A stretch of 57,462 nt of DNA from an uncultured bacterium (GTDB lineage Bacteria > Patescibacteriota > Minisyncoccia > SW-4-49-11), in contig CALMJI010000025.1 of NCBI GenBank assembly GCA_937864235.1, forward strand, positions 1-57,462. Direction: 5' to 3'. The stretch's first letter is position 1; each line of letters begins with the position of its first letter. The notes beneath the pieces are model-generated. The model had not been told where the DNA came from. It made no database searches and saw nothing but the letters and a program-made list of their open reading frames with translations. Position numbers and translations under genes: made by a program. Shown here in pieces: positions 19,062 to 19,563 of this stretch.

Positions 19062-19089
19062 TTGCAAAATAATGTAATATTAGGTATAA
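19062..19089 (+). promoter_or_regulatory. candidate sigma70-type promoter upstream of the first tRNA-Ser 5' repeat
   Basis: TTGCAA, about 17 nt, TATAAT at 19084-19089. Confidence 0.45.
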
Positions 19090-19118
19090 TATAAAAGTTA
19101 TTTAACATCAAGATTTTT

Positions 19119-19127
19119 GGAGAGGTG
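19119..19127 (+). repeat. 9-bp direct copy of the tRNA-Ser 5' end
   Basis: GGAGAGGTG, identical to tRNA-Ser nt 1-9 at 19435-19443. Confidence 0.7.
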
Positions 19128-19179
19128 ACTTCCGCCCAAGGCGGACCAGCCTAGGGCTGGGAGCTAAAGTATTTAATTT

Positions 19180-19448
19180 ATGTGGTATATCTATATTCTA
19201 TATAGTAATAAACTTGATAAATTATATATTGGGAGAACTCGCAATCTTAAAAGAAGGTTTAGAGAACATAATTCTGGAAATTCTGCTTTTTCAAAAAAGG
19301 TATTACCTAGAAAATAATTTATTACTCAGCATTTTCTAACAAAGAAGATGCAAGAATAGAGGAAGTTTTTCTCAAAAGTGGAAAAGGTCGTGAAAGAGTA
19401 AATTATCTTCTGGGGAATACCCTAGACAAATTAAGGAGAGGTGGCTGA
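19180..19448 (+). pseudogene. GIY-YIG nuclease, frameshifted
   Basis: MWYIYILYSNKLDKLYIGRTRNLKRRFREHNSGNSAFSKKVLP then frameshift to KIIYYSAFSNKEDARIEEVFLKSGKGRERVNYLLGNTLDKLRRGG*; the last codons lie in the tRNA-Ser 5' end. Confidence 0.85.
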
Positions 19449-19522
19449 GCTGGTCGAAAGCACCACACTGCTAACGTGGCATAGGGTGAAACCTATCAAG
19501 GGTTCGAATCCCTTCCTCTCCG
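19435..19522 (+). tRNA. tRNA-Ser(GCT)
   Basis: Acceptor GGAGAGG/CCTCTCC, anticodon loop CTGCTAA, long variable arm, T-arm AGGGTTCGAATCCCT. Confidence 0.93.
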
Positions 19523-19526
19523 CCGA

Positions 19527-19563
19527 AATAAAAAAATAGGGTTTCAACCCTATTTTTTTATTG
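19527..19563. terminator. bidirectional Rho-independent terminator
   Basis: aataaaaaaataggg-tttc-aaccctatttttttatt, near-perfect inverted repeat with A/T tracts on both sides. Confidence 0.85.

Follow-up and report, generated by a model that had tools for sequence, protein, structure and literature searches.

A small GIY-YIG nuclease element, probably mobile, that inserts into tRNA genes of Patescibacteria

Overview

The stretch of DNA analysed here (the window) is the 57,462-nucleotide (nt) contig CALMJI010000025.1 of an uncultured bacterium of the Patescibacteriota (assembly GCA_937864235.1); on its forward strand it carries a 316-bp insertion (19119-19434) in the 5' part of a transfer RNA (tRNA) gene, tRNA-Ser(GCT). 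The insertion is likely to be a copy of a free-standing, homing-type mobile element that has tRNA genes as its target and encodes one single-domain GIY-YIG nuclease of about 90 amino acids (aa). Compared with an empty allele, the 5' part of the tRNA has gained 316 bp: the promoter and the native tRNA nt 1-12 persist as a stub, behind which come a double hairpin, some further tRNA nucleotides and the nuclease gene, and then tRNA nt 1-12 a second time, which makes the tRNA complete again. The insertion is delimited by relatives that lack it and, for a sister element, by a colinear pair of empty and filled alleles; owing to the 12-nt repeat its bounds can equally be placed at 19131-19446. An initial annotation of the locus had proposed a small homing-type element aimed at the start of a tRNA gene. 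It was right in kind and understated the scale of the phenomenon: its observation is partly confirmed and its interpretation supported, while active homing (cleavage and biased inheritance) is something that we infer.

Alleles with and without the insertion

Two genomes of the same genus as the window's genome (G001 and G002; the window's genome is G000) share with it the tRNA-Ser(GCT) gene and its terminator region, and in both the tRNA stands directly behind its promoter. The window sequence upstream of the stub aligns with this sister promoter at a score reached by 2 of 1000 shuffles for G001 and by none of 1000 for G002; the alignment is worse for the sequence that immediately precedes the complete tRNA in the window, its score being reached by 28 and 495 of 1000 shuffles, respectively. 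The promoter in question (19062-19090, forward strand), found by a consensus scan and by homology to the tRNA-Ser(GCT) promoter of G001 and G002, comprises a -35-like TTGCAA at 19062-19067 and a -10 TATAAT at 19085-19090, one base away from the 19084-19089 first given for it; it is the original tRNA promoter, behind which the stub now lies. That the insertion parted the tRNA from its promoter while regenerating an intact tRNA, as first proposed, is borne out by the sister genomes, where the homologous promoter directly precedes the tRNA. The genes next to the tRNA in G001 and G002 also match those of the window, namely a nitroreductase gene and, in G001, a DUF805-like gene with 44% identity.

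Empty tRNA-Ser sites, which the initial annotation proposed to look for in relatives, are thus found for Ser(GCT) in G001 and G002, and a second case is provided at tRNA-Ser(CGA) by two genomes of one genus, G217 (filled) and G047 (empty), in which both flanks match. The empty tRNA of G047 starts with GGAAGCGTGGCC; the stub of G217 keeps GGAAGCGTGGCC, and its complete tRNA starts with GGAAAGGTGGCC. The downstream tRNA of G217 further differs from that of G047 in matching acceptor and T-stem positions. On account of these sequences, the stub is native and the tRNA behind the element is probably foreign, at least in part. Other states of the locus occur as well. In another genus, G264 is filled at tRNA-Ser(CGA), and G248 (locus L184) has a stub, a palindrome, about ten bases and a complete tRNA without a nuclease, an arrangement that reads as a nuclease-free scar; a comparable scar at L033 retains ATGTATTAT, which resembles the start of the nuclease gene. 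G005 carries two tandem copies of the element, the first of them truncated.

Layout of the window locus

All features of the locus lie on the forward strand. The element opens with the stub GGAGAGGTGaCT (19119-19130), identical to tRNA-Ser nt 1-12 at 11 of 12 positions (one mismatch) and placed as in the layout common to the subfamily. The 9-bp repeat GGAGAGGTG first noticed at 19119-19127 and at the tRNA start (19435-19443) is present, and the actual copy is longer than claimed. Between tRNA nt 12 and 13 of the stub lies a 30-bp double hairpin, TCCGCCcaaGGCGGA CCAGCCtagGGCTGG (19131-19160), delimited by its sequence and by subfamily comparison; both hairpins had been recognised at the outset, but they sit inside the stub and do not merely follow it. 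The stub resumes with GAGCT, tRNA nt 13-17 (19161-19165), where homologues continue with a GAGTGGTT-like sequence. The N-terminal piece of the nuclease gene (19180-19317) starts with ATG at 19180 and runs for 45 codons to a TAA at 19315-19317; the translated 45-aa piece matches PF01541 at 2.2e-12. The C-terminal piece (19318-19448), identified by translation and from the intact homologue L014, lies in another frame and ends in RRGG-TGA inside the tRNA (TGA at 19446-19448). The complete tRNA-Ser(GCT) follows at 19435-19524 (ARAGORN and the tRNA inventory), and its terminator, found by scan and alignment at 19527-19562, occupies a position common to the sister genomes. In the 815-kb genome G000, 39 tRNA genes were found, and the 37 others that were typed include no second Ser(GCT); since this is the only Ser(GCT) gene detected there, the tRNA behind the element should be functional.

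The host gene stays whole, with a contiguous complete tRNA downstream and the GIY-YIG gene outside any intron or intein. An Rfam search at gathering thresholds returned only tRNAs, and no other RNA family, in eight loci. A group I intron with a homing endonuclease is ruled out by the lack of an Rfam intron in these eight loci and by the contiguous downstream tRNA. An integrase-mediated tRNA island is likewise ruled out, the 316 bp holding a GIY-YIG frame only.

The nuclease

The nuclease frame of the window breaks after 45 codons, with the shift point near 19310 in translation, which excludes a single intact gene; this would be either a real frameshift or a 1-nt assembly error. Since its nuclease gene is broken, the insertion in the window probably died recently. 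The intact homologue in G005 (L014) has an unbroken 91-aa frame that matches PF01541 at 6.6e-15 and ends in RRGG-TGA inside its tRNA. The frame whose last codons and stop are formed by the tRNA, described at first for the window, thus exists in L014, while the window copy is frameshifted. Proteins of this type are bare single GIY-YIG domains of 84-91 aa. The fold, predicted with confidence (mean predicted local distance difference test score of 90), is nearest, among solved structures, to UPF0213 and to the branched-DNA nuclease SLX1, I-TevI being more distant. In closely related nuclease pairs the ratio of nonsynonymous to synonymous substitution rates (dN/dS) is 0.02-0.13, after leaving out pairs aligned out of register (L156 with L275, L157 or L273; L161 with L282), and the nuclease is under purifying selection in relatives.

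Association with tRNA genes

The association was assessed on 111 standalone GIY-YIG genes from genomes of the window's class, these being the best-scoring loci of the listing and not a random draw. A tRNA gene lies within 400 bp of 49 of the 111. A same-strand tRNA lies within about 150 bp downstream of 34, and an opposite-strand one of none (0/111); about 0.7 same-strand downstream tRNAs would be expected, on an estimate that assumes some 45 tRNA genes placed at random in 0.75 Mb. The end of the GIY-YIG gene is as a rule found inside the tRNA or no more than about 20 bp from its nt 1. An upstream copy of the same tRNA exceeds every control in 25 of 33 class loci (L132 was set aside in the scoring, as its match is to a neighbouring tRNA), and many copies begin exactly at tRNA nt 1, as in the stubs of tRNA-Asp (nt 1-31, L073), tRNA-Met (nt 1-22, L138), tRNA-Tyr (nt 1-23, L068), tRNA-Asn (nt 1-19, L051) and tRNA-Val (nt 1-20, L127). 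The initial annotation had allowed that the 9-bp match might be chance; stubs recur at other tRNAs and beat every control in most cases, which rules this out. On inspection, a GC-rich palindrome often splits the stub, which continues behind it. Of the tRNA-linked loci, 25 of 33 have a palindrome of this kind in the 130 bp before the start codon, against 11 of 62 tRNA-free GIY-YIG genes and 13 of 94 control intervals.

The arrangement extends beyond the class. In the rest of the phylum a same-strand tRNA stands downstream of 11 of 69 GIY-YIG genes and an opposite-strand one of none, with a significant stub in 8 of the 11. Among 80 loci of named genomes found with the subfamily, a tRNA on the same strand follows in 35 and one on the opposite strand in none. 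The tie between GIY-YIG genes of this subfamily and tRNA 5' ends, which the initial annotation had proposed to look for, is seen in the 17 closest of these loci: all 17 directly precede a same-strand tRNA (Ser, Tyr or Cys), most with a clear upstream stub. Their lineages are mainly of the Parcubacteria type (Yanofskybacteria, Colwellbacteria, Giovannonibacteria, Wolfebacteria, Vogelbacteria, Falkowbacteria, Moranbacteria), others being labelled only Patescibacteria or uncultured. Stub-bearing loci were also found in two Syntrophaceae assemblies and one Flavobacterium assembly, which are metagenome-derived and may be contaminated. Viral contigs yielded 11 weak relatives; of the nine scanned for tRNAs, only L261 has one downstream (Lys), without an obvious stub. 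Phage records gave 17 distant matches, with 32-43% identity among the matches listed.

The targets follow the phylogeny of the nuclease. On a tree of 112 sequences, built from few alignment columns and with many open forks, the label "tRNA downstream" changes 9 times, against a mean of 29.4 on shuffling, and none of 500 shuffles is as low. Clades specific for Leu (7 rows), Cys, Asn, Tyr and also Ser span genera, and the subfamilies retain their tRNA target across families. The window nuclease pairs with that of G005 with 99% support in the Shimodaira-Hasegawa-like approximate likelihood-ratio test.

Variants of the layout were also seen. In a mirror arrangement (L083, L104, L112, L070) a complete tRNA is followed by the GIY-YIG gene and then by a short orphan copy of the tRNA 3' end. 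At L286, L287, L307, L325 and L335 the cut in the stub falls within the anticodon loop, at about nt 36-37 of the tRNA, and not in the D-arm; insertion sites may thus differ between subfamilies. In a tRNA-Ala/Val subfamily (L063, L075, L108) the copy of the tRNA start sits in a hairpin loop, and at L063 and L108 the element ends resemble inverted repeats (CCCTCACCCAGAAAGCC ... GGCTTTCTGGGTGAGGG).

The double hairpin and the competing explanations

Inside the stub, 26 of 28 subfamily members have a pair of neighbouring hairpins, each with a 6-bp stem and a 3-nt loop. Across 21 distinct hairpin versions all 252 base-pair cells are paired (252/252) and 38 cells have changed on both sides, a number of double changes that none of 500 shuffles attains, slid controls giving at most 3; since the pattern used to choose the hairpin sequences already fixes the three inner pairs, the independent evidence comes from the outer pairs only. 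Dispersed copies of the 30-bp palindrome occur in 23 of 114 class genomes, where a reversed control pattern has no copies, and it can be regarded as the patescibacterial counterpart of the Rickettsia palindromic elements. Several copies lie in long open frames and add SAQGGPASGW-like residues (centre of each of the loci L363, L367-L370, L372-L374, L377 and L380); judged from the flanking residues, these frames look like lepA, miaA, dnaJ and an aminoacyl-tRNA synthetase gene.

The hairpin could accordingly be the real mobile unit, a repeat of the Rickettsia-palindromic-element kind that hits tRNA genes among other sites, with the GIY-YIG gene as its cutter or as a passenger. Its dispersal in class genomes, including open frames of protein genes, the occurrence of stub and palindrome without a nuclease, and the branched-DNA nuclease SLX1 among the nearest structural relatives all favour this explanation, which we nevertheless consider improbable: the single palindrome copy of G000 is the one in the window element, different subfamilies carry unrelated palindromes, the tRNA targets follow the nuclease tree, and the scars resemble deletions, L033 having retained the nuclease start.

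A much smaller chance is left to an origin with no mobile element at all, in which, after a tandem duplication of a tRNA gene, the first copy decayed and gained a palindrome, a GIY-YIG gene landed between the copies and the whole was inherited vertically. A stub followed by a complete tRNA is just what a decayed duplicate would look like, and some loci (L157, L158) do contain repeated tRNA pieces. Empty and filled alleles within genera, above all the pair G047/G217, largely refute it; the acceptor and T stems of the downstream tRNA differ in that pair, one architecture recurs at many tRNA species with target-specific nuclease clades, and the distribution is patchy. Weakest of all, and barely credible, is a domesticated GIY-YIG gene kept beside tRNAs because it serves the cell, for instance in DNA repair or in the quality control of tRNAs, which would account for the strong purifying selection and the likeness to UPF0213 and SLX1 but sits badly with the patchy distribution, with broken copies (that of the window and other frames with stops) and with the different tRNA in the close relatives G248 and G264.

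How the element may move, and what speaks against it

Every part of the locus is explained by the gain, between nt 12 and 13, of a block made of the hairpin, tRNA nt 13-17 or so, the nuclease gene and tRNA nt 1-12. For a homing-type element of this composition, the nuclease would cut uninterrupted tRNA genes at or near the D-arm, or in other subfamilies closer to the anticodon or more 3'; a copy that bears the element would then be the template for repair, by recombination through the tRNA sequence flanking the break; with a break at nt 12/13, the stub would serve as the left homology and the tRNA body as the right. An alternative route, which would fit equally well, is a single crossover with a circle carrying the first ~20 nt of the tRNA. 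The nuclease gene would be transcribed from the tRNA's own promoter, and the tRNA could be freed from the joint transcript by RNase P. Candidate roles of the hairpin are the destruction of the target in the stub, the regulation of translation, or that of a mobile unit in its own right.

Several points weigh against the element as interpreted here. Cleavage, transfer and the joint transcript are deduced rather than observed, and the presumed target persists in the complete downstream tRNA, which would somehow have to escape self-cleavage. Domain searches of the 84-91-aa nuclease recognised no DNA-binding module. The tRNA unit of G001 and G002 is inverted relative to its neighbours, and the colinear proof of an empty site consequently comes from another branch of the subfamily (G047/G217) and not from the genus of the window; it is also this one pair that points to an import of tRNA sequence. 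Lastly, 62 of the 111 class GIY-YIG genes have no tRNA within 400 bp.

A broader interpretation, which we regard as rather unlikely as it stands, would see in these loci a large, apparently undescribed superfamily of minimal tRNA-gene parasites spread across Patescibacteria and other bacteria, whose single-domain GIY-YIG nucleases use host tRNA promoters, replace parts of host tRNAs and, by structure-specific cutting, also move the 30-bp double-hairpin repeats found in conserved protein genes. If true, it would provide the means by which palindromic elements like those of Rickettsia are mobilised.

Relation to described systems

The closest described system is SegB of T-even phages, a free-standing GIY-YIG homing endonuclease encoded in a tRNA cluster (PMC13096335, 2026; PMC2988022; Brok-Volchanskaya 2008, as cited there). 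Cuts by SegB within tRNA genes have been reported, and microhomology between a tRNA 5' end and the segB 3' end gives rise to tandem tRNA-segB arrays (PMC13096335, PMC2988022). Both systems place a GIY-YIG nuclease gene beside tRNA genes, and the tandem of G005 might have arisen as the SegB arrays did. However, SegB is a phage gene, whereas the present elements are chromosomal, encode a single domain of ~90 aa and restore the tRNA, of which a stub with a hairpin stays next to the promoter; the two nucleases share the GIY-YIG domain. As it has no separate DNA-binding module, the element is better described as a variant that works in a SegB-like manner than as a member of the SegB family. In the same bacterial group, a 2024 survey of insertions in ribosomal RNA (rRNA) genes of the candidate phyla radiation (CPR) found GIY-YIG genes to be sparse and judged them to lie outside a homing context; the term tRNA is absent from its main text (PMC11270868). 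Those CPR insertions resemble the present ones in that the GIY-YIG genes stand outside introns and in structural RNA genes (PMC11270868). No description of tRNA-linked GIY-YIG elements in Patescibacteria, or of the present architecture, was found in the open-access literature, most subscription papers lying outside that scope; nothing was found there on YhbQ or on MOREs either.

MOREs, known from Allomyces atp6, are mobile elements of fungal mitochondria that bear an open reading frame (ORF) and carry a replacement end of the host gene. In them, too, a homing-nuclease ORF sits within a gene, and a duplicate of the gene end makes the gene whole again and displaces its native piece; they differ in affecting the 3' end of protein genes, whereas the present elements affect tRNA genes, mainly at the 5' end. 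The double-hairpin elements of fungal mitochondrial DNA and the Rickettsia palindromic elements are short GC-rich double hairpins dispersed in genomes. The present palindrome is also dispersed, and also occurs in open frames of protein genes, but it is linked with a nuclease element and with the stub of a tRNA.

Genes for tRNAs are both essential and conserved, and few known bacteria are as streamlined as the Patescibacteria. A parasite that seizes the promoter of the sole Ser(GCT) tRNA gene and substitutes its own part of the tRNA would have a striking way to resist loss, and part of the sequence of some patescibacterial tRNA genes may be foreign. Such elements would help to explain the abundance of small GIY-YIG genes there, often abutting tRNAs. 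They would also offer a homing element of ~300 bp with many natural replicates (filled, empty, scar and tandem), and a testable candidate for how dispersed palindromic elements move.

Other structures around tRNA-Ser

Further unusual structures accompany tRNA-Ser genes in these genomes. An apparently structured stretch of ~170 nt follows tRNA-Ser at L016 (about 1635-1801), at L015 (reverse strand, about 1325-1500) and at L158 (near the 3' side); it ends in a copy of the tRNA 3' end in G001 and G002, has no Rfam match in L016 or L158, and is possibly another tRNA-linked element. At L157 (about 1060-1320), tRNA-Ser(GCT) is preceded, beside a GIY-YIG element, by two tandem copies of a tRNA-Ser 5' part with a hairpin (GACGGGTTTCAAAAGAAACCC) and a shared tail behind them. 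In G005, a tyrosine-recombinase-like ORF (L014, 512-1351, forward strand) extends into the 3' end of the tRNA-Ser at this locus, which suggests an integrase-type element on the other side of that tRNA.
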